Shown: in pieces, positions 7,777-42,561 of the stretch
Layout: each line of letters starts with the position of its first letter
How positions within the stretch are numbered: the stretch's first letter is position 1
Assembly (NCBI GenBank): GCA_902602695.1
Contig: CACKRO010000003.1
Coordinates: forward strand, 62,001-126,000
Direction of reading: 5' to 3'
DNA: 64,000 nt
DNA from: an uncultured Alphaproteobacteria bacterium
GTDB taxonomy: Bacteria; Pseudomonadota; Alphaproteobacteria; HIMB59; GCA-002718135
Translations under genes and position numbers: made by a program
Notes under the pieces: model-generated
Databases searched by the model: none
Seen by the model: only the letters and a program-made list of their open reading frames with translations
Told to the model about the DNA's origin: nothing

Positions 7777-8766
7777 ATGAAAAATATAGCATTTATTGGA
7801 ACCTCTCATATTCATACACCAAATTTTATTTCTAAGGTAATTTCAAATATTAAAATTAATTGTATTGGTGTTTGGGATAAAGATAAGAACAGGTCAAAAA
7901 GCGATTCTGAAAAACTAAAATGTAAGAATTATGATAACTATATTGATTTATTGAAACAACCTAATTTAGATGGTGTTATTGTATGTTCAGAAACTAATTT
8001 GCACTATGAATTAGTTAAAAGGATTACCGAGAATAAAAAACATTGTTTTATAGAAAAACCTTTGGGGATAGGAAAAAAAGACTCCTTTGAAATGGCAAAT
8101 TTAATTGAGTCATCAAAGATTATTTTCCAAACTGGATACTTTATGAGAAGCAATCCTGTTTATATAAAACTTAAAGAATTAATTACTGCTAATTATTTTG
8201 GTAATATTTCACGAATTCGACTCGTTAATTGTCACGATGGTATTATGAGAGATATTTTCAAAAACTATCAATGGATGACAGATCCTAAAGTTGCAGGAGT
8301 TGGAGCTTTTGGTGATTTAGGAACACATGTTTTAGATCTTCTTTTGTGGTTTTTTTCTGATGTTGAGTCAGTAAGTGCAACCTTTACTAAAGTATATAAT
8401 CAATATCCAGGTTGTGAAGAGAGTGGTGAAGCATTAATAAAATTTAAAAGTGGATTGATAGCTAGTATTGCTGCGGGATGGATTGATATAGCACAGCCAT
8501 ATACTATTTTTGTAAGTGGAACAAAAGCTCACGCAAGAACAACTAATGAGAAATTAATTATAAACGAGGACAAAGATGGTAAGAAAATAGAAAGAATAGA
8601 AGAAAATTTACCAGAAACATTACCTCATGCATTTGATTTGTTTCTTAATTCATTAATTGATACCAATACCAAAAACTTAGTAACTCCCTCGGAAGCTGCA
8701 TTGAGAAGTAGTATAATGGAATCAATTTACCAATCAGAAAAAGAAAAAAAATGGATAAATATCTAA
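7777..8766 (+). CDS. Gfo/Idh/MocA family oxidoreductase
   Basis: This is a 329-residue NAD(P)-dependent sugar or cyclitol dehydrogenase-type protein. The N-terminal Rossmann segment starts IAFIGTSHIHT, a variant of the usual GxGxxG. The catalytic EKP triad member is in FIEKPLG (about residues 91-97), and GDLGTHVLD (about 179-187) supplies the substrate-binding His and Asp. It follows the ATPase by 18 bases and precedes a second family member by 15, so it is probably co-transcribed with the importer. Substrates of this family range from inositol to glucose-type sugars and include NAD-dependent glycosidases (GH4/GH109/GH188-like chemistry). The substrate cannot be assigned. Confidence 0.88.
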   Translation: MKNIAFIGTSHIHTPNFISKVISNIKINCIGVWDKDKNRSKSDSEKLKCKNYDNYIDLLKQPNLDGVIVCSETNLHYELVKRITENKKHCFIEKPLGIGKKDSFEMANLIESSKIIFQTGYFMRSNPVYIKLKELITANYFGNISRIRLVNCHDGIMRDIFKNYQWMTDPKVAGVGAFGDLGTHVLDLLLWFFSDVESVSATFTKVYNQYPGCEESGEALIKFKSGLIASIAAGWIDIAQPYTIFVSGTKAHARTTNEKLIINEDKDGKKIERIEENLPETLPHAFDLFLNSLIDTNTKNLVTPSEAALRSSIMESIYQSEKEKKWINI

Positions 8767-8781: not shown

Positions 8782-9843
8782 ATGAGTAAAATAAAAGTTG
8801 GCATTATTGGCGTCGGGGGTATTGCGAAACTGCATGTTCCTGGTTGGCATATGTCAGAACATGCGGAATTAATAGCAGGTTCTGATATAAACAAATCAAT
8901 TCTTGAAAATTGGGGTAATACAAATCAAATAAAAAAATTATATCTTAATCCCTTAGACATGATTAATGATCCAGATATAGATGTGATAGATATTTGTGCA
9001 CCTAATAACTATCATTGTGACTTAGCAATTAAAGCAATGCAAGCAGGCAAAGATGTTTTATGTGAAAAACCCTTAGCTCCTAATGCCTCACAAATAAAAA
9101 AAATGATTGAAGTAAGAGATCAAACGAAGAAAAAATTAATGTGTGCTCAACACTTTAGATTCAGAAAAGATTCTCAATTAATAAAAGATCAATCCACATC
9201 AATTGGTTCGATATATCATGCACGTTCTTGGATGCTTAGAAGAAATTATTTACCAGTCTCACTTGGTTTTTTAAAAAAAGAAAATTCAGGAGGAGGACCG
9301 TGTATTGATATAGGGGTGCATGTTTTAGATTTAACTCTTTGGTTTATGAACAACCCTGAACCACTTTCCGTGACGGGTGTGTCAAAAACAGAATTAGCAA
9401 AGCAGCCAACTTCTTTTAGTTATAATGGAGAGTACGATAAGGAAGCAATGAACGTTGAAGATTTTGCAGCTGCGTTTGTTAGGTTTAAAAATGGTGCAAC
9501 CTTAATGCTTGAAGTATCATGGATGCTTCATCATAAACTACCAGAAGATAAAATAGAAGATATGCAGGTATGGTTATACGGAAGAGAAGCTGGTTTGCAT
9601 TGGCCTAATTGTGAGATTATAAAAAATGATATCAATTCTCAAACTCACATAACTAAAAAAATTGAAGGCAATTTAAAAGACACTATTGAACCTCATGCAA
9701 AAGAATGTATCGAGTTTGCAGAGTTTATTGCAAAGGATAAACCAGTTACTATTCCTGCTGAACACTCTCTACAAGTAATGAAAATCTTAGATGGAATTTA
9801 TAAAAGTCAAGAAGTAGGAAAAGAAATTATTTTAGAAGAATAG
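8782..9843 (+). CDS. Gfo/Idh/MocA family oxidoreductase
   Basis: This 353-residue protein has a textbook nucleotide-binding GVGGIAKLH at residues 8-16, the CEKPLAP catalytic-lysine motif near 95, and GGGPCIDIGVHVLDLTLWF near 170 with the His and Asp that contact substrate. The C-terminal domain carries a long beta-sheet region and ends within an alpha-helical tail. It is the second of two tandem, dissimilar members, which suggests sequential oxidation and reduction of one imported compound. It lies in the same operon as the upstream importer and the downstream EamA transporter. Confidence 0.9.
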   Translation: MSKIKVGIIGVGGIAKLHVPGWHMSEHAELIAGSDINKSILENWGNTNQIKKLYLNPLDMINDPDIDVIDICAPNNYHCDLAIKAMQAGKDVLCEKPLAPNASQIKKMIEVRDQTKKKLMCAQHFRFRKDSQLIKDQSTSIGSIYHARSWMLRRNYLPVSLGFLKKENSGGGPCIDIGVHVLDLTLWFMNNPEPLSVTGVSKTELAKQPTSFSYNGEYDKEAMNVEDFAAAFVRFKNGATLMLEVSWMLHHKLPEDKIEDMQVWLYGREAGLHWPNCEIIKNDINSQTHITKKIEGNLKDTIEPHAKECIEFAEFIAKDKPVTIPAEHSLQVMKILDGIYKSQEVGKEIILEE

Positions 9844-9853
9844 ATTATGATTA

Positions 9854-10753
9854 ATGAAAAATAATTTATTTTTAGCTGTTATTCTATCACTTTCAGGTTT
9901 GTTCTTATTGGATTGTATGGGGATTGCGATAAAGTTTTTACGAAACGAATATCCAGCAGCTCAACTTTCTGTTTTTAGAAATTTATTTGGAATGATCCCA
10001 TGCGTTATTGCTTTATATTTTTCACATGATTGGTATCGAAACGGTAGACAAATAAAAATAAAGCAATGGAAATTAGGATTATTCCGCGGAGTATTTGTAG
10101 CATTGGCTCAATTATGTCTCTATACTTCTTATGCTTATCTCCCTTTTGCTTTAGTGGCGACAATGGAATATACTGGACCCATGATGGTTACCCTTCTTGC
10201 CATTCCAATATTAGGAGAAAAATTTGGTTGGTACAAAATGAGTGCAGTAATTTCTGGTTTTGTAGGTATTGTTTTAATTATGCAACCTTGGTCATCTGAT
10301 TTTAATTATATGTTATTACTCCCCATACTTGCTGCATTTGGTTATTCGTTAGCAAGAACAACATCACTAAGCTTTGAAGACAGTGTTCCATCACCACTTA
10401 TTAATTTATATGGTCAGACTGGAACAATAGTAGTTGCATGTTTGCTAGTATTAATTTTTGGTATGTGGGAAAATTTTAAAAGTATAAATGATTTCTTAGT
10501 AGTTTGTGTAATGGGAATAGCGGGAGGATCAGGAACTTTATTATTAATTTATGGTGCAAGAAGAGCAGAACTGAGTAAAATTATGCCATTTGATTATATA
10601 GAAATATTTTTTGCCCTTATTTTAGGTTGGGTATTTTTTGCAGAATGGCCAGTAGACCAGCTATTTCCAGGAGCTTTTTTCATAGTTCTAGGAGGATTAA
10701 TCATTTATCTTCAACAAAGAAAAAATAATTTTCAACGATTAAGGAAAGTATAA
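9854..10753 (+). CDS. EamA/DMT superfamily inner-membrane transporter
   Basis: This 299-residue hydrophobic protein has about ten transmembrane helices arranged as two EamA repeats. The first repeat begins near LDCMGIAIKFLRNEYPAAQLSVFRNL and ends in the PILGEKFGWYK turn; the second ends in FFAEWP and a positively charged tail. The family exports or exchanges metabolites, amino acids and nucleotide sugars. Placed between sugar oxidoreductases and an aldose epimerase, it may export a by-product or import a related small molecule; this is inference. The next gene's start overlaps its stop by one base. Confidence 0.85.
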   Translation: MKNNLFLAVILSLSGLFLLDCMGIAIKFLRNEYPAAQLSVFRNLFGMIPCVIALYFSHDWYRNGRQIKIKQWKLGLFRGVFVALAQLCLYTSYAYLPFALVATMEYTGPMMVTLLAIPILGEKFGWYKMSAVISGFVGIVLIMQPWSSDFNYMLLLPILAAFGYSLARTTSLSFEDSVPSPLINLYGQTGTIVVACLLVLIFGMWENFKSINDFLVVCVMGIAGGSGTLLLIYGARRAELSKIMPFDYIEIFFALILGWVFFAEWPVDQLFPGAFFIVLGGLIIYLQQRKNNFQRLRKV

Positions 10754-11805
10754 TGAAATATAATATTACTAAACTTCAAAACGAAAAAGGTTTGGATATT
10801 GATATAATCAAAATTACTAACTCAAATAATTATAGTTTTAGTTTTTATACGTATGGTGGTTACATGAATGAAGTTTGTATTCCAACTTCTTCGAATGTTT
10901 CTCAAACTGAGGATGTATTATTAGGTTATGGTAATTTAGATGATTGCCTAGAAGCTCATGGATATTTCAATTCAATTATTGGAAGAGTTTGTAATAGAAT
11001 AGGACAAAGTAAATTTACTCTTAATGGGGAGGATTATTATTTATATCCTAATACCGAGCCTGATCATCTTCATGGCGGAAAGGAAGGTTTTAATAAAAAG
11101 ATTTGGAAAATAGCTGATATTAATAAAACAAGTGTCAGCATAAAAGTAGAGCTAACTTATTACTCTAAACATTTAGAAGAAAATTATCCAGGAAACTTAA
11201 ATTGTAAAACTATTTATGAGCTTAATAACAATAACGAAATTCTAATTTCATTTAATGCTACCGCAGATCAAGATACCATTGTTAATATGACTAATCATAA
11301 CTATTGGAATTTCCATGGGCATAAAGATAATTACAAAAATATTACTAATCATGTTGTCAGAATATCATCTAATCAAATTTGTGAAACTGATGAGGGATCA
11401 ATTCCTACTGGTAAATTATTCGATGTAGTTAATACAAAATATGATCTTAATAATTCATTTGAAATAAATAATTCTTTTTTAGAAGGCGGGGGTATTGATC
11501 ACAATTATGTTCTCAAAGATCATTCTATCGATCAATCTATAGCTTCCATCTACAGTAACATTACTGGTATGGGAGTTGAATACTCGACTGATCAACCTGG
11601 TATACAATTTTATACTGGTAACATGATGAAGGAGTCATACAACGGGAAACATAATAGAAATTATGGTTTACAATATGGAATGTGTTTAGAGACACAAATC
11701 TTCCCCGATGCTATTAATCAACCAAATTTTCCATCAACTATTTTAAAAGTAGGCGAAACATATAATTCAAATACAAAAATAAAATTAAGAAATGATTTTA
11801 AATAA
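10753..11805 (+). CDS. Aldose 1-epimerase (mutarotase) family protein, GalM-like
   Basis: This 350-residue protein interconverts alpha and beta anomers of a hexose. It shows the family landmarks: NRIGQSKFTLNG (about residues 81-92), the substrate histidine in HLHGG (about 105-109), the catalytic histidine in NHNYWNFHG (about 181-189), and the catalytic glutamate in CLETQIFPDA. These match GalM in spacing and length. It starts on the last base of the EamA stop and precedes the ComDE-like genes by 46 bases. GalM-fold proteins include sulfoquinovose mutarotase (YihR), which matters given the next genes, but the sequence alone does not separate the two. Confidence 0.88.
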   Translation: MKYNITKLQNEKGLDIDIIKITNSNNYSFSFYTYGGYMNEVCIPTSSNVSQTEDVLLGYGNLDDCLEAHGYFNSIIGRVCNRIGQSKFTLNGEDYYLYPNTEPDHLHGGKEGFNKKIWKIADINKTSVSIKVELTYYSKHLEENYPGNLNCKTIYELNNNNEILISFNATADQDTIVNMTNHNYWNFHGHKDNYKNITNHVVRISSNQICETDEGSIPTGKLFDVVNTKYDLNNSFEINNSFLEGGGIDHNYVLKDHSIDQSIASIYSNITGMGVEYSTDQPGIQFYTGNMMKESYNGKHNRNYGLQYGMCLETQIFPDAINQPNFPSTILKVGETYNSNTKIKLRNDFK

Positions 11806-11851: not shown

Positions 11852-12352
11852 ATGAAAATCAGTAAAAAAATCATCGATAATTTAAAAAAAGGTGGAGTTG
11901 ATTTTTATTTAAGTGTTCCATGTAAGTTGTTAGCTAACATGATTGATATTCTTGAAAATGATAAAGATATTTATTATTCGGCTGTACCACGTGAGGAAGA
12001 AGGTATGGGTATTTGTGCTGGAGCTTATTTAGGAAATAAATTCCCGTGTATAATGATGCAGAATACAGGAATAGGAAATTCAGTGAATGCAATTGTTTCT
12101 TTATTACAATTATATCAAATACCTGTTGTTTTTCTAATAAGTTATAGAGGTACACCAGGTGAGCCAGTAGGAGCACAAGGTGGAATGGCTAAAATAACTG
12201 AAGATATTTTACAAACTTTAAGAATACCTATGCTGCATTGCTCTTCCGAAAAAGATTTAGACAAAATTTCAACATTTAGCAAACACGCAAAAGTTGTGGA
12301 GTCACCAGTTGCGATATTATGTGATTTTAATTTAATGAAAGATGATACATGA
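11852..12352 (+). CDS. comD: Sulfopyruvate decarboxylase-like alpha subunit (ComD-type, TPP enzyme Pyr domain)
   Basis: This 166-residue thiamine-diphosphate enzyme subunit corresponds to the N-terminal pyrimidine-binding domain. The cofactor-activating glutamate sits in PREEEGMGICAGAYLG (about residues 46-61), followed by MQNTGIGNSVNA (about 69-80). These blocks and the SVPC segment near 21-24 match methanogen ComD, the small subunit of sulfopyruvate decarboxylase, better than single-chain phosphonopyruvate decarboxylases, which are about 380 residues. The partner domain is the next gene, overlapping by four bases (ATGA), so an equimolar complex is likely. The reaction would be sulfopyruvate to sulfoacetaldehyde plus CO2. 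A related 2-oxo acid remains possible. Confidence 0.75.
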   Translation: MKISKKIIDNLKKGGVDFYLSVPCKLLANMIDILENDKDIYYSAVPREEEGMGICAGAYLGNKFPCIMMQNTGIGNSVNAIVSLLQLYQIPVVFLISYRGTPGEPVGAQGGMAKITEDILQTLRIPMLHCSSEKDLDKISTFSKHAKVVESPVAILCDFNLMKDDT

Positions 12353-12918
12353 ACCGTTTTGACTTATTAAATAAGATACAAAATATTCTTAAAGATAATT
12401 TAGTTATTTGTAATATAGGTCTTCCATCTCAAGAATTATATAAAATTAATGACCAACCAAATTTTTTTTATATGTTAGGAAGCATGGGCTTATCTTCTTC
12501 TATTGGTTTAGGTTTAGCACTATCTCAAAATAAACATGTCATTAGTATAGATGGTGATGGATCAGTTTTAATGAATATGAACACCTTAGCAACAATAGGC
12601 AATAGAGCACCTTCAAACTATACTTTATTGATAATTGATAATGGCTCCTATGGTTCAACAGGAGATCAACGAACATTTACTGATGAAAATACTTCCTTAA
12701 AGGACGTTGCAATAGGATCAGGCTGCAAAAAAGTGATTGAATGCTCTGGTGAGGAAACAGTGAATGAATTGTCCAAAGCTATTGATGATAAAGATAATTC
12801 TTATGTAATAATTTCAAAGATCAATCCTGGGAATGTTAAAATTGATCCTATTCCACTCAATCCTATAACTATAAGAGATAGGTTTCGAAAGTTTATTGGT
12901 ATAGTTAAATACCTTTAA
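12349..12918 (+). CDS. comE: Sulfopyruvate decarboxylase-like beta subunit (ComE-type, TPP-binding domain)
   Basis: This 189-residue subunit carries the diphosphate- and Mg-binding motif of TPP enzymes: DGDGS (residues 68-72) through DN (97-98). A conserved MLGSMGLSSSIGLGLALS block (about 42-59) and DNGSYGSTGDQ (about 97-107) follow ComE closely. Together with the preceding Pyr-domain subunit it makes a complete active site. The bacterial setting is notable, because ComDE is best known from coenzyme M biosynthesis in methanogens and from sulfolactate or DHPS breakdown in marine bacteria. The neighbouring kinase and 2-hydroxyacid dehydrogenase fit the catabolic reading. Confidence 0.75.
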   Translation: MNRFDLLNKIQNILKDNLVICNIGLPSQELYKINDQPNFFYMLGSMGLSSSIGLGLALSQNKHVISIDGDGSVLMNMNTLATIGNRAPSNYTLLIIDNGSYGSTGDQRTFTDENTSLKDVAIGSGCKKVIECSGEETVNELSKAIDDKDNSYVIISKINPGNVKIDPIPLNPITIRDRFRKFIGIVKYL

Positions 12919-12928: not shown

Positions 12929-13837
12929 ATGATCATTTGTGCAGGATCAATATTTACAGATTACATAAGTAGGATAGATAAGTTTCCAAAAAAACCAATT
13001 AAAGTTTTATCTAGAGGTATTGATAAAAGATTAGGTGGGTCAGCAGCGGTATCGGCATTTACTGCAAAAATATTGGGGTCTGAATCAAAATTTATTGGAA
13101 AATTTGGAGATGATGATTCTTCAATCTTTTTAAAAAATGAGTTAAAAAAATTTTCTATTAATATTAGTAAATCAATTTTCATAAAAAAATGTCAGTCTTC
13201 ACAAAGCTTTGTAATTGAAGATACAAAAGGTGAAAGATTACTAGCAGCTTACAATGATCCAAAGCTACTTAATTATAAGAAAATACCGAAATTAAATTTT
13301 AGAAAACAAGATATTTACTCAATAGATATGAGATGGATAGATATGGCCTTTAATATTGCTATTAATACTAATAAAAAAAAAATTAAATGTGTTGCAGATT
13401 TAGATAATTTTAAAAATTCAAATAAAATTTCTCAAATTGTTAACAAAGCTTCTCACCCTATATTTTCTGAAGAGGGTTTGAAAATTTATAAAAAAAATAT
13501 CAATATGCAAAAAGCTCTTTTTCAAATATTCAATGAAACAAATAAATTTGTTGCAGTTACTATGGGATCAAAAGGTGTTTATTGGGTTGAAAATAATTCA
13601 TTATATCATTGTAAAGTTCCAAAGGTGAAAACAATTGAAACAAATTGTGCAGGAGATGTTTTTCATGGCGCTTTTGCAACAGCTCTATCATTAAATAAAT
13701 CAAATTCTCAAAGTATTCAAATAGCAGCAGCAACGGCAACATTAAAATGCATGAAAAAGGGAGGAATATACTCAATTCCAAAAAAAAATATGGTAAATAA
13801 ATTTTTAAAAAAATTAAAGATAAAAAAAATTAAATGA
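12929..13837 (+). CDS. PfkB-family carbohydrate kinase, sulfofructose-kinase (YihV)-like
   Basis: This is a 302-residue ribokinase-fold sugar kinase. It has an N-terminal GG in RLGGSAA (34-40), SSQS followed by DTKGER (90-103), and a catalytic Asp243 in NCAGDVFHGAF (239-249). The canonical GAGD is CAGD here. The blocks SSQS/DTKGER, D-x-R-W at 133-136, FSEEGL at 179-184, DVFHGA, and LKC...GG...IP near the C-terminus match what I recall of E. coli YihV. Lys25 and Arg135 align with residues I recall as sulfonate contacts in YihV. A third contact, an Asn, aligns here with Ala, with Asn two positions later near 109. This makes sulfofructose a candidate substrate. A non-sulfonated ketohexose cannot be excluded. 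Confidence 0.85.
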   Translation: MIICAGSIFTDYISRIDKFPKKPIKVLSRGIDKRLGGSAAVSAFTAKILGSESKFIGKFGDDDSSIFLKNELKKFSINISKSIFIKKCQSSQSFVIEDTKGERLLAAYNDPKLLNYKKIPKLNFRKQDIYSIDMRWIDMAFNIAINTNKKKIKCVADLDNFKNSNKISQIVNKASHPIFSEEGLKIYKKNINMQKALFQIFNETNKFVAVTMGSKGVYWVENNSLYHCKVPKVKTIETNCAGDVFHGAFATALSLNKSNSQSIQIAAATATLKCMKKGGIYSIPKKNMVNKFLKKLKIKKIK

Positions 13838-14769
13838 TAAATATTCTAATTACTGAATTTTTAGATGAACAAGTTTTAAATAATTTAAATAAAGATTTTA
13901 ATGTAACTTATAATGATGAAATTTGGCAAAATAGAGATTACTTAGAAAAAGAAATACATAATTTTGATGGAATAATTGTAAGAAATCAAACAAATCTGGA
14001 TGAGAGTATTTTAGAAAAAGCAGTAAATTTAAAATATATTGGAAGACTAGGAGTTGGTCTTGATAACATAGACACTGATTACTGTAATAAAAATAATATT
14101 TTTGTTCAACCCGCAACAGGTATGAATGCAGATTCTGTTGCTGAATATGTGATTAATTCTTCTCTAATATTATTGAAAAAAACTTTAATTGTAAGTGATC
14201 AGACTAGAAAAGGAAATTGGCCAAGGAATTCTATTGTAACAAATGAGCTGAAAGGGAAGACATTAGGTTTAATAGGTTTTGGTTACATTGCAAAAAAAGT
14301 TTTTAAACTAGCTAACTCATTTGATATTTCAATTATTACGTACGATCCATTTATTTCTTTTGAACAAATAGAGAGTTTCAATATAAAAAAAGTATCTTTC
14401 AATGAGATTTTGAAGTTATCAGATATTATTTCAATACACGTGCCTTTAAGTGAAGAAACTAGATATATGTTTAATAACCAAGTTTTCTCCAAAATGAAAA
14501 AAAAACCTATTATTATCAACTCTTCAAGAGGTGGAATAATTAATGAAAGAGATTTACTATATGCTTACACAAACAATATTATTTCTGGTTTTGCTTTAGA
14601 TGTATTTGAGAATGAACCTATTGATGAAGAATTCTATAAAAATATCACAAAAAATATGAATTGTATCTTAACTCCACATACAGCTGGAGTAACTGAAGAG
14701 TCAAATACTAGAGTAAGTGATTTTATAATTGATACAACAAATAAATTTTTTCAAAGCTTTAAAGATTAA
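13834..14769 (+). CDS. D-isomer-specific 2-hydroxyacid dehydrogenase, candidate sulfolactate dehydrogenase (SlcC-like)
   Basis: This 311-residue NAD-dependent dehydrogenase belongs to the SerA/formate-dehydrogenase-like family. The nucleotide-binding GLIGFGYIA lies at 145-153. The catalytic triad is complete: Arg232 in SSRGG, Glu261 in ENEP, and His282 in PHTAG. It overlaps the kinase gene by four bases (ATGA). (S)-sulfolactate dehydrogenase SlcC belongs to this family and acts one step before sulfopyruvate decarboxylase, so adjacency to ComDE suggests sulfolactate to sulfopyruvate. From sequence alone, phosphoglycerate, hydroxypyruvate or another 2-hydroxy acid is equally allowed. Its 3' end overlaps the convergent minus-strand gene by 11 bases. 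Confidence 0.87.
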   Translation: MINILITEFLDEQVLNNLNKDFNVTYNDEIWQNRDYLEKEIHNFDGIIVRNQTNLDESILEKAVNLKYIGRLGVGLDNIDTDYCNKNNIFVQPATGMNADSVAEYVINSSLILLKKTLIVSDQTRKGNWPRNSIVTNELKGKTLGLIGFGYIAKKVFKLANSFDISIITYDPFISFEQIESFNIKKVSFNEILKLSDIISIHVPLSEETRYMFNNQVFSKMKKKPIIINSSRGGIINERDLLYAYTNNIISGFALDVFENEPIDEEFYKNITKNMNCILTPHTAGVTEESNTRVSDFIIDTTNKFFQSFKD

Positions 14770-15850
14770 ATTCACTCATTTTAACTACTCTTCCTTCTTT
14801 TGCTGATATCTCAGCTGCTTGGCCCATAGCAACAGAATACAGACCATCTTTAATTGAAACTTCCGCAGGTAGTTTATTATTTATACTATTTATAAAACCT
14901 AAATGTTCATAATATGTTGATCCATGGTGGTGACCAGCATCAAATATTTTTTTATCTACTGTAATATTTTCAAGAATAGGATTATTTTGATCTCTCATAC
15001 CAATTCTTAAAGTAGAAGAGTTTTTACCAGATCTATTAGATGGCACTCCAGTCTCTATTTTACCTAAGTTTCCAACAGCACAAAATTCTTCTTGTAAATC
15101 TGTATTTTCAGCAAACATACATAAATCTAAAGTACTCCTTACACCATTTTTAAAATCAACAATTACAAATGCATTATCAATAATATCTGGAACTTCATTA
15201 TTATATCTCTCTTCTAAATGATTTACATCCTGTCCAGCACTTGCAAATATTTTAGTTGGTTCACTTTGAATGATAAGTCTCATTAAATCAAAAAAATGAC
15301 AACATTTTTCAACAAGCGTTCCACCAGTATTTCGGGAAAATCTATTCCAATCTCTTACTTTTTCTAAAAAAGGCTGACGATGCTCTTTTATAGTTAGCAT
15401 TTTCAGATCTCCAATTTTCTTCATATGTATATATTCTGTCATTTTACTTACAGGCAGCATATATCTGTACTCCATAGCTATCCAAATTGTACTCTTATAA
15501 TTTTTAGTAATTTTTTGTAGTTCAAAACAGTCATCAACATTTGTACACATTGGTTTTTCTATTAGGAGATGTTTATTTGCTACTAAAATTTTTTTAACTA
15601 CATCTATATGTGTAAAGTTTGGTGTAGAAATAACATAAGCATCCACACTATCATCTTGAATCAAACTATCTATATTATTAAAACACTTAATACTTTTATT
15701 ATTTGCTAATTCATAACTTGCTTTTATTGAATCCTCAAATGTATCACACAAAGCAACAACTTCTGCATTATCAATGATTTCAATGTTCCTAATATGCTCT
15801 CTACCCATTGCCCCGGTACCAATTATTGCATATTTAATCTTTTGATTCAT
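14759..15850 (-). CDS. Gfo/Idh/MocA family oxidoreductase
   Basis: This 363-residue protein has the nucleotide-binding GTGAMGREH at 11-19 and the IEKPM catalytic-lysine motif near 97. Its substrate loop is GGTLVEKCCHFFD near 176-188; the EKCCHFFD form marks the inositol-2-dehydrogenase/IolG-like subgroup in my experience of the family. It is second in a two-gene minus-strand operon, starting within the stop of the FucI-like gene (ATGA overlap), so the two probably act on one substrate. It converges with the 2-hydroxyacid dehydrogenase. Confidence 0.9.
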   Translation of the reverse strand: MNQKIKYAIIGTGAMGREHIRNIEIIDNAEVVALCDTFEDSIKASYELANNKSIKCFNNIDSLIQDDSVDAYVISTPNFTHIDVVKKILVANKHLLIEKPMCTNVDDCFELQKITKNYKSTIWIAMEYRYMLPVSKMTEYIHMKKIGDLKMLTIKEHRQPFLEKVRDWNRFSRNTGGTLVEKCCHFFDLMRLIIQSEPTKIFASAGQDVNHLEERYNNEVPDIIDNAFVIVDFKNGVRSTLDLCMFAENTDLQEEFCAVGNLGKIETGVPSNRSGKNSSTLRIGMRDQNNPILENITVDKKIFDAGHHHGSTYYEHLGFINSINNKLPAEVSIKDGLYSVAMGQAAEISAKEGRVVKMSEFNL

Positions 15851-17220
15851 AAAGTGTATACCGGTATTTTTAATTGATTACCTAATGATAATAGATCTTC
15901 GTATATATCTCCATAAGTAAATGCAATATGATGTTCCATTCCACTAAGCAAAAATTCTTCAATCATTCTTGTAGTAGATTTACCAAATGAAACAACACCA
16001 GATGTTCCAGAAAAAGAATTTTTCTCATCCAAAACTTTTCCTTTTAAAATAAAAAATTTTAGCTTGTTATGGGATTTTGAAACTCTAAATATTGTTATCC
16101 TTCCTTTTTTAAATGCAAAATCAAACAACAGTGGTTTTTTTCTATTAGAATGAAGAATGGCTTTAGACTTTTTTTTATTTGACATACTAATTGGTGCAAG
16201 CCCACAATGCCAAAACACAACATTATTTTTTTTATAATCTAAATCCACAATATCAACTAATAATGATGGTTTATTGTTAATTTGGTTAAGAATTCTACAA
16301 CTAATACTCCCTAATACATCAGCTTCACATGCTGAGCTAATTTTTTTTTCATTAAGCATAGCCATAGGACCACAAGCAGCACATCCAAATTTAGTAAACA
16401 TTTCTGGCCAACATCTTATTGCAAAAGAATCAATATCTTTATCCTTCTTTATATTTTGTAAACCATGAAAAATTGAAAGACTTTTATTTAATTCAACTGA
16501 GTTTAGTTTCTCTAAACCTGAGGTATAATTATTTATGTTATTTTTTGTGTGATTTATCTCTTCCCTTGATATTTGTTTTGATTCTGCAAATAATTTATCT
16601 AGACTTATTTTTTTAATATTTGTTTTAAGTCTATTTTTTATTTCTAACTCATTATAATCACACGTGTAAAAACCATTTGGTCTTTCCCCCACTAATCCTA
16701 AATTTAACTTTTCAATTTTTGGAATAATATTTTTTTTATTTTTAGTGATTACTTTTTTTAAATAATTTAAATTGCCAATGCTTTCACGATCTACGAAATC
16801 TTTTATTTTTTCTTTAATAGTTCTAGAGTTGTTGTTAAATATTACAAATTCACCTTTTTTATTATTTTTACCTAAAGCATGTAATGCTAAATTTACTCCA
16901 CAAATAGAATTTAATCTTAATCTTTTTCCGCTTCTTGGTTCTTTTATTGAAATAAAAAGTATTGGTTTATTAAATTCTAAGGCAAATTTTAGAATAAATT
17001 CAGCGTCTGTAAATGTAGATTGAATAACTATATATTTTTCACATTCTTTATTCTTAAAAAACTTAATTGCTTTATCTGCATCATTTTGTGATAAAATTAA
17101 TTTCTCAAATTCATAAATTTTGTAATCAAGTTTTGTAAGTACCTTAGATATAATGTTAATTTTTTGTTTAGCATACTTAATATCAAAAGTATCTCTTCCT
17201 AAACTTAAATAACCAATCAT
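15847..17220 (-). CDS. L-fucose/L-arabinose isomerase-like protein
   Basis: This 457-residue protein resembles the FucI/AraA-like superfamily of metal-dependent aldose-ketose isomerases. Candidate Mn-binding and catalytic residues are Glu273 in RCWPE, Glu299 in CEADVLG and His338 in FWHCG, with another His pair in GMEHHIA near 442. The block RCWPEMFTKFGCAACGPMAML is typical of the family. The N-terminal substrate domain is divergent and lysine-rich. Members of this superfamily, as I recall, include sulfoquinovose isomerases of transaldolase-type sulfoglycolysis, so it could supply the isomerase step next to the YihV-like kinase. Fucose or another sugar is also possible. It is divergent from the alpha/beta hydrolase. 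Confidence 0.75.
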   Translation of the reverse strand: MIGYLSLGRDTFDIKYAKQKINIISKVLTKLDYKIYEFEKLILSQNDADKAIKFFKNKECEKYIVIQSTFTDAEFILKFALEFNKPILFISIKEPRSGKRLRLNSICGVNLALHALGKNNKKGEFVIFNNNSRTIKEKIKDFVDRESIGNLNYLKKVITKNKKNIIPKIEKLNLGLVGERPNGFYTCDYNELEIKNRLKTNIKKISLDKLFAESKQISREEINHTKNNINNYTSGLEKLNSVELNKSLSIFHGLQNIKKDKDIDSFAIRCWPEMFTKFGCAACGPMAMLNEKKISSACEADVLGSISCRILNQINNKPSLLVDIVDLDYKKNNVVFWHCGLAPISMSNKKKSKAILHSNRKKPLLFDFAFKKGRITIFRVSKSHNKLKFFILKGKVLDEKNSFSGTSGVVSFGKSTTRMIEEFLLSGMEHHIAFTYGDIYEDLLSLGNQLKIPVYTL

Positions 17221-17286: not shown

Positions 17287-18186
17287 TTGAACTCTACATT
17301 TTTAAGAAAAAATTTACTATCTTTATTAAAAATTGATAACAAAAATAATATTTTTAAAAAAAAATTAATCTCAAAGACAAATTGGAAAAACTATGTTTTA
17401 GAGGATTGGATATTTATTAATAATAAAAAAGAAAGAATTCCTTTTTATTTTATAAAACCAGATCAAATAAATGTTTTCCCTGCAGTTTTATATTGCCATG
17501 CTCATGGGGGTGACTATTCAATAGGAAGAAAAGAATTATTAAATGGTAGAGCAGCATTGTTATCCAATTATGCTTCTTTTTTTTTAAAAAGGAATATAGC
17601 AGTTTTATGTATTGAAATGCCAACTTTTGGAAGCAGGCAAATACCAAATGAATCTAGTTTATCAAAATCTTTAAGTTGGAATGGAAAAAACTTATTTGGA
17701 AAAATGATTTCAGAACTATTGATAGGCGTAGATTTTCTATATGAAAATAAATCTATAAATAAAAAAAAAATAATAACATTTGGTTTTTCTATGGGTGCAA
17801 CTCATTCATATTGGGTTGCAGCTTTAGACAGAAGAATAACAGCTTCAATACATTTGTGTTCTTTTGCAGATCTTAGAAATTTGATTAAAAAAAATAATCA
17901 TGATGGACATGGGCATTATATGACTGTACCAGGTTTATTAGAAAAATTTAGTACTTCAAAAATTGCTGGTCTTATTGCACCTAGAAATCAATTAATATGT
18001 GTAGGATTAAAAGATAAATTTACTGATTATAAATCATTTTATATTTCAAAGAATGAACTTACAAAAATTTATAGAAAAAAACAATGTGAGACTAATCTGG
18101 AATTTTGTGTCGAAAGAAAATCAGGCCATATTGAAACTTTAAAATTTAGAAAAAAAATAGCTAATTTTTTAAATAAAATTATGTAA
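17287..18186 (+). CDS. Alpha/beta hydrolase, dienelactone-hydrolase/acetyl-esterase-like
   Basis: This 299-residue protein has a recognisable catalytic triad. The nucleophile Ser is in GFSMG (about residues 165-169), the acid is probably Asp in CVGLKDKFTD (about 239-248), and the His is in KSGHIET near 279-285. An oxyanion loop CHAHGGDYS lies at about 72-80. The start is TTG at 17287 with AAAGGA eight bases upstream; there is no good ATG near it. No signal peptide is visible, so it acts in the cytoplasm. It sits just before the CUT1 importer, so a role in removing acyl groups from imported sugars is reasonable but unproven. It is lysine- and asparagine-rich like its neighbours. Confidence 0.75.
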   Translation: MNSTFLRKNLLSLLKIDNKNNIFKKKLISKTNWKNYVLEDWIFINNKKERIPFYFIKPDQINVFPAVLYCHAHGGDYSIGRKELLNGRAALLSNYASFFLKRNIAVLCIEMPTFGSRQIPNESSLSKSLSWNGKNLFGKMISELLIGVDFLYENKSINKKKIITFGFSMGATHSYWVAALDRRITASIHLCSFADLRNLIKKNNHDGHGHYMTVPGLLEKFSTSKIAGLIAPRNQLICVGLKDKFTDYKSFYISKNELTKIYRKKQCETNLEFCVERKSGHIETLKFRKKIANFLNKIM

Positions 18187-18228: not shown

Positions 18229-18255
18229 TTGACATGAAATACATTGATTGTATGG
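18229..18255 (+). promoter_or_regulatory. Putative sigma70 promoter with embedded inverted repeat upstream of the CUT1 binding protein
   Basis: TTGACA at 18229-18234 is separated by 16 bases from TATGGT (18250-18255). An inverted repeat ATACA-TTGAT-TGTAT (18239-18253) fills the spacer and overlaps the -10, where a repressor could act. The gene start at 18278 follows a GGAGGA Shine-Dalgarno at 18269-18274. Confidence 0.45.
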
Positions 18256-18277
18256 TTTCTATATTAATGGAGGAATT

Positions 18278-19564
18278 ATGAAAATTTTCTTAAATTTAAA
18301 AAATAAACTATCTGTATTTGTTACAGGTTTATTTATTTTATCAACTTCATTTGCTGCTTCATCTACTAATTTATCTATTATGATGAGTGCGGATGGCCCA
18401 GAAGTTGAATTAATGGAAAGTTTAATTTCAAAATATGGATCTATCGAGCCAGATGTAAATATTGAAATTAACTTAGTAGGTTATAATGTTATTCGTGAAC
18501 AGCTCCCTGTTCAATTGGAAGCAGGAACTGGACCCGATATAGGAAAAATTACTGATCTTGGTGGTTTAAATCCATATTATGTTGATTTAACTCCATATGT
18601 TGATGTTGCTGAATGGAATAAACAATACGGTGGAGTACTGCCTTGGTATAGAGCTGGTAAACCAGATGGAATATTTGGTTTTCACAATGAAATGACAGTA
18701 ACTGGACCATATGTAAATCTGTCAATGTTCGAAGAAGCCGGAGTTGAAGTACCTTCTCCTGGAGCAACTTGGGATGATTGGGCTGATGCTACAAGGCAGG
18801 TAATGGAAAACACTGGAAGTTATGCTGGTATGGTTATGGATCGTTCTGGTCATAGAATGGCTGGACCAGCTATGTCATATGGAGCAAAATATTTTGACTC
18901 AAACGGCAACATGATTGTTGACGATGGTTTTAAAACATTTGCACAAAAAATGGTTGATTGGCATGCTGAAGGTTTAATGCCAGCAGATATTTGGCCTGCT
19001 GTCTCCGGTTCGAAATATGCAAATGGTAACGAAATGTTTTTCAACCAAGATGTACCTTTTTATATGTCTGGATCATGGAATGTTACAAATGTTATGAACA
19101 GTGTTGGAGATAGTTTTGAATGGACAAAAGTTCCAGTTCCTTGTGGTCCTGCTGGATGTGGTATTATGCCTGGTGGATCAGGATTTGTTGCCTTTAATCA
19201 TTCTCCTAATGCGGAAGCTGCAGCAAAATTTGTTGCTTGGCTCGGAGAATATGATCAAGCTAGACATTGGTATACTCACAGAATGGCTATTCCTGCACAT
19301 GCTCAAATTCAAGCAGAAGGTATTGATTACTCTGAAGCAGGTGCAAGTGAAGCAGTTTCTAATGCACTAAACGTTTTTGCTGCTGATGCTGCAAACGCGG
19401 CCAAAGAAACTCCTCAAGCATATCAATTACAAGGAAGTAAATTTGGATTTGTTATTTATAATGCAACTACTCAATATTTAGGTGGTGTTATGAATGGAGA
19501 ATATGACTTAGATACTGCAATTGAAAGAATTAAATCTGAAGTTGCAGAAAAGACTGGTCAGTAA
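18278..19564 (+). CDS. ABC sugar transporter binding protein, family 1 (CUT1/MalE-UgpB type)
   Basis: An upstream in-frame ATG at 18248 exists, but GGAGGA directly before the ATG at 18278 and a signal peptide beginning MKIFLNLKNKL fix the start. The protein is 428 residues, with predicted cleavage after SFAA near residue 28. The mature part has the family-1 pattern: ISKYG.. lobe, AGTGPDIGKI (about 85-94), and GGSGFVAFNHSPNAEAAAKF (about 299-318). CUT1 systems import di- and oligosaccharides, glycerol-phosphate esters or glycosides; SmoF, which binds sulfoquinovosyl glycerol, is also of this type. A hairpin follows, then two permeases and an ATPase. Confidence 0.9.
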   Translation: MKIFLNLKNKLSVFVTGLFILSTSFAASSTNLSIMMSADGPEVELMESLISKYGSIEPDVNIEINLVGYNVIREQLPVQLEAGTGPDIGKITDLGGLNPYYVDLTPYVDVAEWNKQYGGVLPWYRAGKPDGIFGFHNEMTVTGPYVNLSMFEEAGVEVPSPGATWDDWADATRQVMENTGSYAGMVMDRSGHRMAGPAMSYGAKYFDSNGNMIVDDGFKTFAQKMVDWHAEGLMPADIWPAVSGSKYANGNEMFFNQDVPFYMSGSWNVTNVMNSVGDSFEWTKVPVPCGPAGCGIMPGGSGFVAFNHSPNAEAAAKFVAWLGEYDQARHWYTHRMAIPAHAQIQAEGIDYSEAGASEAVSNALNVFAADAANAAKETPQAYQLQGSKFGFVIYNATTQYLGGVMNGEYDLDTAIERIKSEVAEKTGQ

Positions 19565-19577
19565 AAATTATTAAATT

Positions 19578-19602
19578 AGGCCGCATTAATTGCGGCCTTT
19601 TT
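19578..19602 (+). terminator. Hairpin with T-tract between binding protein and permease
   Basis: An eight-base-pair GC-rich stem (AGGCCGCA pairing with TGCGGCCT) encloses a TTAAT loop and is followed by five T residues. It begins 13 bases after the binding-protein stop. The permease ATG at 19608 comes five bases after the T-tract and has no other Shine-Dalgarno, so the hairpin is positioned to affect both transcription and translation of the permease. Confidence 0.85.
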
Positions 19603-19607
19603 AATTT

Positions 19608-21050
19608 ATGAATTATACAGGAAGTTTATTAGTAGGCGTTCTACTGGCATGGGTTTTTTTAGGAGGCTTTTGGCTTTTTAAAGAAAGAAAATATAAATTT
19701 TATCAAATACCTCAATTTTTTATAGATTTAGTTGGCTTACCTGTTGAACTATCACAAAAAATATGGGGTAAGTCTGGGGTCCCATATGCACTTTTACTTC
19801 CTAATCTTTTAATATTTGGGTTTTTTACTTTCCTACCTTTAATTTTAAATTTTTGGGTATCTTTGACAGGTGGGGATTCTATTTTATTATACAAAAGACC
19901 ATTTATTGGCTGGAAACATTATTTTGATATTTTTAATTGTGATTCTATTTTCAACCCTTCAACATGTTCTAATGCAGGTTATGATTTTTGGAGTTCTTTA
20001 TATAATACATTTACATTCGTATTTTTTCAGGTTCCAATTATGTGTGTAGTAGCATTAACAACAGCTATAATTCTAAATAAATCTTTTGTAGGTAGAGGTT
20101 TTTGGAGAGCTGTATTCTTTTATCCTGTATTGCTTTCACCTGTCGTAATTGCAAATATTTGGACATGGGTTCTTCACCGAAAAGGTGTTTTAAATGATAT
20201 GGTTGGGTCATCAGTAAAAGGAATTAATTTAATTGCTGGTAGAGCTGGTTTCGATCTTATTGTTACTGTTATTTTTGGTATTGTCTTAATTTTCGTTGTT
20301 CAAAAATTAATTAAATCAAAAAAGCAAATATCGGTATCATGGTCTTTTGTTTTTGCTACAATATTTTTCTTAATATTTATTTGGTCTAACCCCCTTTATT
20401 TATTAAGTGAGACTTTATCTGAATATAATATTTATTTTGGTCTACTTTTGACTTTTATTTATTTATATTTAGTAATTAACGAAAGTAATTATAGTTATAT
20501 AATTAGTATACTACTCTCTGTAGCGGCTTCATTATTATTACTCACCATACAATTTGATAGTGTTTTCGATTTTGGTAAATTCAGGCCAATAAATTGGTTG
20601 GTAACACCTAAATCTGGTTGGCCTTTTTTTTGGCTAGTATTTGTATTTTGCTGGTCTCACATGGGTTTTTATATGTTAATAATTTTAGCTGGCTTACAGG
20701 CTATTCCAAAAGATTTATACGAAGCTGCAGAAATGGACGCTGCAAAACCATCAAGAGTATTCTTTAGAATTACCTTTCCTCTTTTGATGCCAACATTTAC
20801 AGTTGTTGTTGTCCTTTGTTTAATAAGAAGTTTTCAAATTTTTGATGAAGTTTATTTATTAACTGGCGGTGGACCAGGAAAAGAAACTTTTATGATGGTT
20901 CAGAACATATATGAAGAAGCTTTTACTGTCTCAGCTGGATCTTCACCAAACTATGGTGGAGCAGCAGCAGCATCTGTATTGATGGCAATAGTAATTGGTA
21001 TATTTACTTTTTTTCAGCTTTATATAACAAGAAAGCAATCAGAGCTTTAA
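19608..21050 (+). CDS. ABC sugar transporter permease, MalF/UgpA family, with extra membrane segments
   Basis: This is a 480-residue inner-membrane protein. Beyond the usual six helices of CUT1 permeases (about 290 residues), it has an N-terminal helix (about 5-22) before a short amphipathic stretch, and a central block of about four hydrophobic segments (about 222-325) inserted into the fold. The coupling EAA loop is YEAAEMDAAKPSRVFFRITFPLL near 373-395, and it ends with GGGPGKET and a final helix. MalF itself carries extra segments, so an enlarged CUT1 subunit has precedent. It pairs with the next gene. Confidence 0.9.
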   Translation: MNYTGSLLVGVLLAWVFLGGFWLFKERKYKFYQIPQFFIDLVGLPVELSQKIWGKSGVPYALLLPNLLIFGFFTFLPLILNFWVSLTGGDSILLYKRPFIGWKHYFDIFNCDSIFNPSTCSNAGYDFWSSLYNTFTFVFFQVPIMCVVALTTAIILNKSFVGRGFWRAVFFYPVLLSPVVIANIWTWVLHRKGVLNDMVGSSVKGINLIAGRAGFDLIVTVIFGIVLIFVVQKLIKSKKQISVSWSFVFATIFFLIFIWSNPLYLLSETLSEYNIYFGLLLTFIYLYLVINESNYSYIISILLSVAASLLLLTIQFDSVFDFGKFRPINWLVTPKSGWPFFWLVFVFCWSHMGFYMLIILAGLQAIPKDLYEAAEMDAAKPSRVFFRITFPLLMPTFTVVVVLCLIRSFQIFDEVYLLTGGGPGKETFMMVQNIYEEAFTVSAGSSPNYGGAAAASVLMAIVIGIFTFFQLYITRKQSEL

Positions 21051-21056
21051 AATCAG

Positions 21057-22133
21057 ATGTCAAAAAAAATATATAAATTTCTCACCGCTACTAAGGGTTC
21101 TAAAAATAATGGTCGAATAGGAATGCAAGATATTATCTCTTATATTTATTTGTTTTTTGGCTTTGTAATAATATTTTTGCCGGTAACTTGGACACTATTA
21201 AGTTCATTTAAATCTAAAGAGTCATTAGAAAAATTTGATACTAGAGTAATGCCCTACGAACAAGTAACATCAATTGTAGAAGGTATAGGCGAAAAATTTC
21301 TTTATGAAATTCCTTCAGAGAATAATAAAGTTGTTTTTAAAGCAGGACCAACAAAAAAACTCACTAAGGTAGCAACAATTGAAAACCCTGATGAAGTTTT
21401 TGAGATTGAAAAAAAGAAACTTACACCCAAAGAGGATGTTCGAATTTCAATTGAAAATTATTTGGATCCAATATTAAGGATAAATGGACAAGAAAGATTT
21501 TTATTCTTTACATATTTTTTTAACAGTATTTTCATTACCGTAGTTGCAACTGCAATAACTCTTATAATTAATTCTATGGCTGCTTTTGCATTATCAAAAT
21601 ACGAATTTAAAGGCAGACTTACATTTACACTATTAATTGTAGCAACGTTGTTAGTTCCTTCAACTATAATTTTAGTAGCTTTATTTTTTGTAGTTTGGTC
21701 TTTTGGAATATTTGGATCACTTTGGGGAGTAATTATACCCGCAGCTGCCACACCAACAGGTGTTTTCTTATTAAGACAATATATGTTAACTATTCCCAAT
21801 GAACTTCTTGAAGCTGCAAGGATGGACGCTGCATCTGAGTGGAGAATCTATTGGAGAATAATCATGCCATTATCTTTACCAGCTTTGTCAGTTTTAGCCA
21901 TATTAAGTATTATATGGAGATGGAATGACTTCCTATGGCCATTAATTGTTCTAATATCAGATCCTCAACAACATACTTTGCAAATTGGTTTGACTACTTT
22001 TGCTGGGGAATTTGATACTGATTATAATTATATCTTAGCAATGACAGTCACAACTTTAATTCCTGTAACTATAGTATTTGCTTACCTCCAAAAATATATA
22101 ACAACTGGTATTGCAACTACAGGACTCAAATAA
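21057..22133 (+). CDS. ABC sugar transporter permease, MalG/UgpE family
   Basis: This is a 358-residue partner permease. The first helix (about 25-50) is followed by a roughly 80-residue extracytoplasmic segment, longer than in most MalG proteins. The six-helix core follows, with the coupling loop LLEAARMDAASEWRIYWRIIMPL near 243-265. A central FGSLWGVIIPAAATPTGVFLLRQY block is characteristic. It lies six bases after the first permease and ends on the first base of the ATPase ATG, so the operon is tightly coupled. Together the subunits form the membrane channel for the sugar bound by the upstream protein. Confidence 0.92.
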   Translation: MSKKIYKFLTATKGSKNNGRIGMQDIISYIYLFFGFVIIFLPVTWTLLSSFKSKESLEKFDTRVMPYEQVTSIVEGIGEKFLYEIPSENNKVVFKAGPTKKLTKVATIENPDEVFEIEKKKLTPKEDVRISIENYLDPILRINGQERFLFFTYFFNSIFITVVATAITLIINSMAAFALSKYEFKGRLTFTLLIVATLLVPSTIILVALFFVVWSFGIFGSLWGVIIPAAATPTGVFLLRQYMLTIPNELLEAARMDAASEWRIYWRIIMPLSLPALSVLAILSIIWRWNDFLWPLIVLISDPQQHTLQIGLTTFAGEFDTDYNYILAMTVTTLIPVTIVFAYLQKYITTGIATTGLK

Positions 22134-23215
22134 TGACGTCTAAAGCTTTAAAATTAGAACAAATCCATAAATCTTTTGGAGATGTAAAGGTTTTGAAAGA
22201 TATAAATTTAGAAATTAATGAAGGTGAGTTTGTAGTATTTGTTGGGCCATCTGGTTGTGGAAAATCAACTCTTTTAAGAATTATTTCTGGTCTTGAAGTC
22301 CCATCAGAAGGTGAAATTGTTATAAGAGATAATGTAGTTAATAATATTCCTGCATCAGAGAGAGATTTATCGATGGTATTCCAATCATACGCTTTGTATC
22401 CGCATATGTCAGTTAAAAAAAATCTTTCATTTGGTTTAGAAAATTTAAGAATAGATAAGAGTGAAATAGAAGAAAGAATTAAATCTGCAGCAAAATTACT
22501 AAGAATTGAAGAACTTATGGCAAGAAGACCAGGACAATTATCCGGAGGTCAAAGACAAAGAGTTGCTATAGGAAGATCAATAGTAAGAAAACCAATTATT
22601 TTTCTATTTGATGAACCTTTATCAAATCTCGATGCCGAATTAAGAATGCAAATGAGGGTCGAATTATCAGACTTGCATGAAGAACTTGGAAATACAATGA
22701 TTTATGTAACACATGATCAGATTGAAGCTATGACAATGGCAGATAGAATTGTCGTAATGAGAGACGGGGTAATTGAACAAATTGGTACACCTTTGGAATT
22801 ATATAATTATCCTACTAACAAATTTGTTGCTGGATTTATTGGTGCTCCACAAATGAATTTTATAAATGCAAAAAAAATGCCTGATGGTCTTACAATAGTA
22901 AATAATCATCATATTAAATCAGTTTATAATAATGATAATCAAAACAGTGAATTGATATTAGGAATTAGACCTGAACATATAGAAGTATCTCTTGAGGGTG
23001 AAGGTGATTTAAAAGCAATTATAGATAATTTTGAACAACTAGGCTCTGTTACATATATTTATTTAAAACTGGAGTCTAATGAGTCACTTACTGTACAACT
23101 GCCTTATCAAGTATCTTTAAAAAGAAATCAAAAAATTGCAGTTTCATTTGATAATGAAAAAATACATATATTTGACGGTGAAACTGAAAAAATTTTGAAT
23201 AGTAAAAAACCTTGA
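22133..23215 (+). CDS. ABC sugar transporter ATPase, UgpC/MsmK/MalK family
   Basis: This 360-residue ATPase has Walker A GPSGCGKST (about 37-45), Q-loop FQSYALYPHM, signature LSGGQRQR, Walker B IIFLFDEPLSNLD and the switch His in VTHDQ. A C-terminal TOBE/OB domain (about 240-355), with LGIRPEH near 279-285, places it in the MalK/UgpC group rather than the Opp group. It energises the upstream CUT1 permeases. The next gene begins with a TTG overlapping its TGA. Confidence 0.95.
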   Translation: MTSKALKLEQIHKSFGDVKVLKDINLEINEGEFVVFVGPSGCGKSTLLRIISGLEVPSEGEIVIRDNVVNNIPASERDLSMVFQSYALYPHMSVKKNLSFGLENLRIDKSEIEERIKSAAKLLRIEELMARRPGQLSGGQRQRVAIGRSIVRKPIIFLFDEPLSNLDAELRMQMRVELSDLHEELGNTMIYVTHDQIEAMTMADRIVVMRDGVIEQIGTPLELYNYPTNKFVAGFIGAPQMNFINAKKMPDGLTIVNNHHIKSVYNNDNQNSELILGIRPEHIEVSLEGEGDLKAIIDNFEQLGSVTYIYLKLESNESLTVQLPYQVSLKRNQKIAVSFDNEKIHIFDGETEKILNSKKP

Positions 23216-39912: not shown

Positions 39913-40737
39913 ATGTACGTAGATAGTCATCAACATTTTTGGAAACTTTCAAGAGGAGATTACTCTTGGATGACTCCAGATATGAAAGTGTTATATAAAG
40001 ATTTTTTTCCAGAAGATCTTGAGCCAATTATAAAACAAAAAAATATTACTAAAACAGTAATTGTCCAAGCTGCTGACACTGTTGCTGAAACAGAATTTAC
40101 ATTAAGTTTAGCATCTAAATATGAATTTATTGCAGGTGTGGTGGGTTGGGTTGATTTAGATAGTAACAACGCTAAAGATGATATCGATAAACTTTGTGAG
40201 AGTAAATTTTTAAAAGGTTTCAGACCTATGATACACGATATTCAAGATGATGCTTGGATGTTAAATGATCACCTAAAAGAAAATATAAAATATTTAAATG
40301 AAAATAATTTAACTTTTGATGCTTTAGTTCGACCAAATCATCTTCAACATCTTATACAATTTGTTAAAAAATATGATTTCCTTCCTATAGTTATTGATCA
40401 TATCGCTAAGCCCGTGATTATTAAGTCTGAAATTGATCAATGGAAAAAGGATATGACTGAACTATCAAAAGCAAGTAATGTTTTTTGTAAATTCTCTGGA
40501 ATTCTTACAGAAGTTGGTCAAGATTATACAAAAGAACAGTTAGATCCTTATATTGATTTTATTCTAAATACTTTTGGATCTGATAAATTAATGTGGGGAA
40601 GTGATTGGCCTGTTTTAACAATGGCAGATAATTATTCAAATTGGTTTGATTTAGCAATGAATTATTGCAATTCTTTTTCTGAAGACGAAAAAAATAAAAT
40701 ATTTTCTCAAAATGCAACTCAATTTTATAGTCTTTAA
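39913..40737 (+). CDS. L-fuconolactonase (amidohydrolase-2 family)
   Basis: This 274-residue hydrolase opens L-fucono-lactone to L-fuconate. The amidohydrolase HxH is in DSHQHFW (4-10), the metal and catalytic residues include His in IDHIAKP near 158-164, and Asp in WGSDWPV near 231-237. The SRGDYSWM stretch near 15-22 is typical of lactonases of this group, and the length fits the family. It begins on the base after the dehydratase stop, so the two are coupled. Confidence 0.92.
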   Translation: MYVDSHQHFWKLSRGDYSWMTPDMKVLYKDFFPEDLEPIIKQKNITKTVIVQAADTVAETEFTLSLASKYEFIAGVVGWVDLDSNNAKDDIDKLCESKFLKGFRPMIHDIQDDAWMLNDHLKENIKYLNENNLTFDALVRPNHLQHLIQFVKKYDFLPIVIDHIAKPVIIKSEIDQWKKDMTELSKASNVFCKFSGILTEVGQDYTKEQLDPYIDFILNTFGSDKLMWGSDWPVLTMADNYSNWFDLAMNYCNSFSEDEKNKIFSQNATQFYSL

Positions 40738-40765
40738 AAGATTATATAAATTTAAGTTTAATTAA

Positions 40766-42553: not shown

Positions 42554-42561
42554 AGTTAATT

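Follow-up and report, generated by a model that had tools for sequence, protein, structure and literature searches.

The closest relative with a solved structure of the kinase under study is YihV, the sulfofructose kinase of the sulfo-EMP pathway of E. coli; the two share the PfkB family, the order of their conserved sequence blocks, equivalents of K27 and R138, the DVFHGA block and a neighbourhood of sulfoquinovose genes. The kinase of the window (the whole 64,000-nucleotide stretch of DNA analysed) differs from YihV in being 34-35% identical to it, in having Ala for N109 and in having CAGD for the catalytic GAGD; the isomerase, glycosidase and downstream genes around it also do not correspond in type to yihS, yihQ and yihU of the E. 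coli cluster. K27, N109 and R138 are residues which we take to be the sulfonate contacts of YihV.

The genome that contains the window belongs to the same genus as single-cell genome AG-891-K05 (locus L067, whose kinase coordinates are the same as in genome G078), the reference of genomospecies GCA002718135-1.A in the order HIMB59 (PMC10734472). HIMB59 is the AEGEAN-169 of 16S studies (PMC10734472, PMC10308909), and the lineage is reported to make up almost 5% of the bacterioplankton in the epipelagic samples of a single-cell study quoted in PMC10734472; sulfoquinovose is described as one of the most plentiful organosulfur compounds (PMC12890257). Judged from its gene surroundings, the kinase very probably belongs to a sulfoquinovose-degradation cluster of these abundant, little-studied open-ocean bacteria; if the cluster works as proposed, a streamlined open-ocean group would take sulfoquinovose to sulfite within one cell. 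A term search of the available text of two HIMB59 genome papers (PMC10308909, PMC10734472) did not return "sulfoquinovose"; the word stem "sulfo" is absent from the available main text of the former, and "sulf" appears once in that of the latter, in a reference title. A term search of a 2026 study on sulfoquinovose degraders active in marine and fresh waters (PMC13372026) found no mention of HIMB59, SAR11 or Pelagibacter. The results listed by literature searches on sulfoquinovose with SAR11, with HIMB59/AEGEAN-169 and related terms, or with sulfopyruvate decarboxylase included no description of the cluster; a similar one may be in print elsewhere.

Gene content and synteny of the cluster

The kinase gene (12929-13837, + strand) is an open frame of 302 aa with a Pfam PfkB match (E=4e-36), and is proposed to encode a 6-deoxy-6-sulfofructose 1-kinase. 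Its best PDB sequence match is E. coli YihV (7ag6, E=5e-44), followed by the "sugar kinase" 2rbc (E=5e-26); the best curated model is that of ribokinase, with a score far below the cut-off. Among the 162 genomes of the order, 66 have a match to the kinase, the window's own genome included, all within one genus (two of the 66 are fragments at contig ends), so the frame is not due to chance; the other genus kinases are 50-98% identical to that of the window.

Upstream of the cluster lies a gene for an EamA/DMT-type membrane protein (9854-10753, +; type assigned by eye), a possible exporter that is kept in most genus loci. It is followed by an aldose 1-epimerase (10753-11805, +; Pfam Aldose_epim, E=4e-68), the proposed sulfoquinovose mutarotase, and by the alpha (11852-12352, +; TIGR03845, 163 bits against a cut-off of 148) and beta (12349-12918, +; TIGR03846, 225 bits against 221.5) subunits of sulfopyruvate decarboxylase; the beta subunit reaches only 135 on the phosphonopyruvate decarboxylase model, against a cut-off of 312.5. 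The two subunit genes overlap each other and end ten bases upstream of the kinase gene, whose own end is overlapped by 4 bases by the start of a D-2-hydroxyacid dehydrogenase gene (13834-14769, +). This dehydrogenase is assigned by Pfam 2-Hacid_dh and is a proposed (S)-sulfolactate dehydrogenase (SlcC-like); its homologue adjoins sulfopyruvate decarboxylase in L194, a locus of a distant alphaproteobacterium outside the order.

On the opposite strand is a GH188 NAD+-dependent sulfoquinovosidase of the Gfo/Idh/MocA family (14759-15850, -; 8qc2, E=4e-103; 8qc3, E=3e-100). Alignment shows that it keeps the sulfonate-binding R-x3-L-x-K and His motifs, the residue roles being those given in PMC11465081 and PMC10755693, and the motifs recur in all 52 genus sequences that exceed 350 aa; GH188 has been characterised on sulfoquinovose glycosides (PMC10755693). 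Six Gfo/Idh/MocA-type genes, three recognised by Pfam and three by eye, are present in 19 kb of the window (7777-8766, 8782-9843, 14759-15850 on the minus strand, 23212-24276, 24273-25283 and 25243-26355). Genomospecies GCA002718135-1.A is reported to be enriched in alpha-N-acetylgalactosaminidase (PMC10734472); as the GH109 fold is related, part of this signal may come from GH188 or other NAD-dependent glycosidases.

The adjoining gene encodes a member of the sulfoquinovose isomerase family (15847-17220, -; SftI/SqvD type, L-fucose isomerase-like; NF048012, E=3e-97), whose 326 bits fall below the equivalog cut-off of 700, so that membership of SftI holds at family level only; the homologue in L194 scores 252, and a paralogue that belongs to a cluster of a different type scores 138. 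With the isomerase taken at this level, the isomerase and sulfofructose kinase pair of sulfo-EMP is present in the window. A sugar ABC importer comprising a binding protein, two permeases and an ATPase (18248-23215, +; types by eye) follows as a candidate importer of the substrate; its binding protein has nine sugar-type PDB matches, of which none is labelled sulfoquinovose-binding. Farther along, a run of genes at 37628-44008 appears by eye to be an L-fucose use cluster, with fucosidase-like, fucose-mutarotase-like and enolase-superfamily genes, a KDPG-type aldolase and a second PfkB kinase.

Elsewhere in the same genome, Xsc is encoded on the same contig (C3:35222-36949; 946 bits against a cut-off of 676) and ends 25 kb before the window. 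As a specific partner of the kinase it was set aside, being found in 88 of 162 genomes and in six of seven genera, including genomes that have no such kinase. A TauE/SafE-like membrane protein, recognised by eye on contig C11 (L030:8086-8820), is a possible sulfite exporter.

From family-level gene identities, conserved synteny and the Xsc gene, which are observed directly, we infer every reaction and substrate of the following route. Glycosides of sulfoquinovose would be imported and GH188 would release sulfoquinovose, which the epimerase and isomerase would convert to sulfofructose; the window kinase would then form sulfofructose 1-phosphate, and an aldolase would cleave this to DHAP and sulfolactaldehyde. 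An aldehyde dehydrogenase would yield sulfolactate, the 2-hydroxyacid dehydrogenase sulfopyruvate, and sulfopyruvate decarboxylase sulfoacetaldehyde, from which Xsc would produce sulfite and acetyl phosphate.

The genus set comprises 59 loci (53 named contigs and six genome stretches), and in every one of them the kinase stands together with both decarboxylase subunits. Of the 59 loci, 58 have the epimerase, 54 the dehydrogenase, 53 GH188 and 51 the isomerase; in the loci with gene lists inspected, the missing genes fall at contig ends. L194 carries nine consecutive genes in the order kinase, YihT-like aldolase, isomerase, GH188, epimerase, SSADH-type aldehyde dehydrogenase, 2-hydroxyacid dehydrogenase, and decarboxylase alpha and beta, of which GH188 and the epimerase are assigned by similarity to the window proteins alone. 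As read from these assignments, the run is a gene-by-gene outline of a putative route from sulfoquinovose glycosides to sulfoacetaldehyde. L195 and L197 carry the first seven of the L194 genes, the aldehyde dehydrogenase being assigned from its resemblance to the L194 protein, and no decarboxylase was found within the stretch covered.

When window positions 2927-23215 are compared with L064-L116, protein identity to L067 falls stepwise from 94% for the kinase through 71% for the dehydrogenase, 62% for GH188 and 53% for the isomerase to 43% for the binding protein; the window's transporter half and an alpha/beta hydrolase (17287-18186) are common to L064 and L065 only, with L066 alike up to its contig end. 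The right half of the cluster looks like the product of cassette exchange. In L102:14459-20868 and L122:436-4737 and, by gene lengths, in L089, L093, L096, L098, L113 and L119, the gene after the isomerase begins a transporter of another type; most of these loci also encode a 424-aa sulfatase-like protein, in which a CSPSR-type motif was recognised by eye, and several a 230-aa formylglycine-enzyme-like protein. In L100:19274-20878 and L110:19277-20872, and likewise in L101, L104, L105, L107, L108, L109 and L115, the transporter is followed by a GH31-like protein that shares 22-24% identity with E. coli YihQ.

Contact residues and the substrate of the kinase

The initial annotation had compared the kinase with sequence blocks of YihV, and the order of the SSQS, DTKGER, DxRW, FSExGL, DVFHGA and LKC...GG...IP blocks is indeed shared by the two proteins; the spacing of the last, given as LKC-x4-GG-x4-IP, is in fact LKC-x3-GG-x3-IP. 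Its residue pairings were borne out by alignment with YihV, which pairs K25 with K27 and R135 with R138 and places A107 opposite N109, with an Asn (N109 of the window kinase) two positions further on; CAGD in place of the catalytic GAGD was likewise read correctly. K25, A107, R135 and CAGD are invariant among the 58 distinct full-length genus sequences, the window included. As a possible stand-in for the third contact, the Asn two positions after A107 is weakened by Ser (4) or Thr (1) in 5 of the 58 sequences, the other 53 having Asn. An AlphaFold model of the kinase has a mean pLDDT of 59, with residues 1-31 (which hold K25) and 109-136 (which hold R135) below 50.

The value of the three columns was surveyed across the class by searching 385 genomes with an alignment of YihV and the genus kinases. 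At E<=1e-35, 27 genomes matched, two of them in the genus, and 26 hits outside the genus were tabulated with their surroundings; a homologue of the isomerase, GH188, YihT or YihQ within about 9 kb was taken as sulfoquinovose context. Such context is found for 8 of the 26 homologues, all of which have both Lys and Arg, with N (six) or T (two) in the third column, so Asn at this position may not be strictly required. For the other 18 no such context was seen, several of the stretches ending at a contig end; 17 of these keep Lys and Arg, with P (14), V (1), I (1) or N (1) in the third column, and L196 has none of the three residues. The Lys/Arg pair therefore does not single out sulfofructose kinases; its earlier use as a sign of a sulfonated substrate is rejected, and the survey warns against taking the conserved pair as a marker of such kinases. 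By the alignment, the third column separates the groups better (N or T against mostly P), and the genus has Ala there; the residue evidence on the predicted kinase role is neutral, with one presumed contact lost.

The sulfofructose kinase role itself, argued earlier from those residues, is probably right, because of the neighbouring genes and not the two residues. With good confidence, the kinase is expected to phosphorylate 6-deoxy-6-sulfofructose at C1 in a sulfo-EMP-type pathway; it is most likely the sulfofructose kinase of such a pathway with a sulfopyruvate decarboxylase branch, a role for which the contextual evidence argues strongly. Counted against the proposal are Ala at the third contact in 58 of 58 sequences, an isomerase below its equivalog cut-off, a kinase tree in which the place of the genus is not resolved, an unspecific Xsc, the failure to find a YihT-type aldolase in the own genome, a binding protein without a sulfoquinovose-labelled match, and the lack of the words HIMB59, SAR11 and Pelagibacter in PMC13372026 by term search.

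Alternatively, the gene could encode an ordinary sugar kinase from the broader YihV/2rbc-like PfkB subfamily that stands in the cluster by chance and whose substrate is a ketose without a sulfonate or a sugar like ribose. Such a kinase would agree with the commonness of Lys and Arg among kinases with no sulfoquinovose-type gene seen nearby, with Ala in place of the third contact, with ribokinase as the best curated model (far below cut-off), and with overall identity, which does not favour the sulfoquinovose-context kinases (25-34% to these, YihV included; 24-31% to the others). Placement by chance is, however, hard to square with linkage to sulfopyruvate decarboxylase in 59 of 59 loci, with a GH188 sulfoquinovosidase and an isomerase-family gene adjoining the kinase, and with homologues in operon-like runs that carry the complete set. 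The kinase tree puts the genus on a long branch and does not resolve its place among the sulfoquinovose-context kinases; it does contain a clade of 14 no-context kinases (support 98/96) from which the genus kinase is excluded, and an ordinary kinase is considered improbable. Action of the kinase and cluster on another sulfosugar, for example sulfotagatose from sulfofucose with Ala reflecting another substrate geometry, is the least probable reading, for although the isomerase is like SftI at family level only, the YihT-like aldolases of sister loci and of L194 exceed the cut-off of a tagatose-bisphosphate aldolase subfamily model and PMC12421959 discusses an EMP-like route for sulfofucose, the GH188 family is known from sulfoquinovose glycosides (PMC10755693) with its sulfonate-binding residues kept here, and sulfofucose is reported to have raised ED-type proteins, not PfkB/aldolase/isomerase homologues (PMC12421959).

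The proposed aldolase and aldehyde dehydrogenase steps

For the sulfofructose kinase reading, the cluster of the window lineage leaves two steps to be accounted for: neither an aldolase nor an aldehyde dehydrogenase was found in it, so the genome must supply both from outside the cluster. A YihT-like aldolase (26-27% identical to YihT) lies between isomerase and transporter in four of the five genus loci with a divergent kinase (50-54% identical to that of the window) that were read; the fifth, L120 of G002, holds an aldolase remnant in which only the ends are left (about residues 7-39 and 305-339) and the middle is gone. No aldolase was found at the isomerase/transporter junction in any of the 37 other genus loci that cover it. 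Searched across all 162 genomes, a YihT-like query returns close orthologues (at least 65%) in 8 of them, besides the remnant in G002; a LacD-like paralogue that is more distant turns up in 15 genus genomes, besides two fragments in G060. A YihT-type aldolase was found neither in the own genome (74% complete) nor in G078 (96%), and an intact copy in none of the six kinase-bearing genomes that are at least 90% complete. A PF01791 search of those six, which recovered the clustered aldolases of G060 and G067 as positive controls, gave one match each, a deoxyribose-phosphate aldolase 75-98% identical to that of the own genome. Most cluster copies that can be checked are, by these searches, without a dedicated aldolase, and the step would then be done in some other way.

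The own genome encodes two class II aldolases, an FBA-type (open frame of 376 aa) and an IolJ-like one (276 aa), both unlinked to the cluster; an aldolase of the SqiA type may be among them. Both types are present in G078, G038, G050 and G088, G032 has the FBA-type only, and the sole class II match of G002 has an E-value that fits the IolJ-like type; neither type was found in all six near-complete genomes. Because no intact YihT copy is found in these six genomes and class II aldolases are present, a class II enzyme may take over the step. It is tentatively proposed, as a reading just short of an even chance, that most genus lineages lost the dedicated sulfofructose-phosphate aldolase from an otherwise intact pathway and that a generic class II aldolase (FBA or IolJ-like) cleaves sulfofructose 1-phosphate, the 6-sulfonate mimicking the 6-phosphate of fructose bisphosphate. 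If true, sulfoglycolysis in an abundant ocean clade would use ordinary glycolytic enzymes and escape searches for yihT; the apparent loss makes it possible to test directly if sulfoglycolysis can run on core aldolases. For sulfolactaldehyde oxidation, an unlinked 483-aa aldehyde dehydrogenase of the own genome, 51% identical to that of L194, is a candidate.

The LacD-like aldolases, considered as the missing aldolase, are not taken as partners of the kinase: in the six loci inspected they lie in a different cluster, beside DhaK/DhaL-like and YihU-like genes, and one carrier, G061 (79% complete), has no kinase match. An inositol cluster on C11, in which a kinase and a class II aldolase are close, was considered as sulfo-EMP2 and set aside, as the gene between them looks like iolB by eye. 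A second cluster, seen in six genomes (L143-L148, e.g. L145:2220-12262), contains DhaK/DhaL-like and enolase-superfamily-like genes; it also encodes isomerase-like (26-27% identical to the window isomerase), YihT-like (30-34%) and YihU-like (37-39%) proteins, and possibly serves another sugar or sulfosugar route.

Comparison with hybrid and actinobacterial clusters

The cluster resembles the hybrid sulfo-EMP/EMP2 clusters mentioned in PMC12890257, in which a YihV-type kinase is combined with an SftI/SqvD-type isomerase; it differs from them in that the window lineage is without a clustered aldolase and aldehyde dehydrogenase and has sulfopyruvate decarboxylase in addition. It is also like the actinobacterial clusters of the GH188 Tyr variant (PMC11465081), where GH188, fucose-isomerase, SF kinase and D-3-phosphoglycerate dehydrogenase genes stand together; one of the two types of these clusters described there is likewise without an SFP aldolase. 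The actinobacterial clusters carry sulfolactate sulfolyase genes where the window has sulfopyruvate decarboxylase (PMC11465081), and the sulfonate site of the window GH188 is of the Leu type (R-x3-L-x-K), in contrast to the actinobacterial Tyr variant (PMC11465081).
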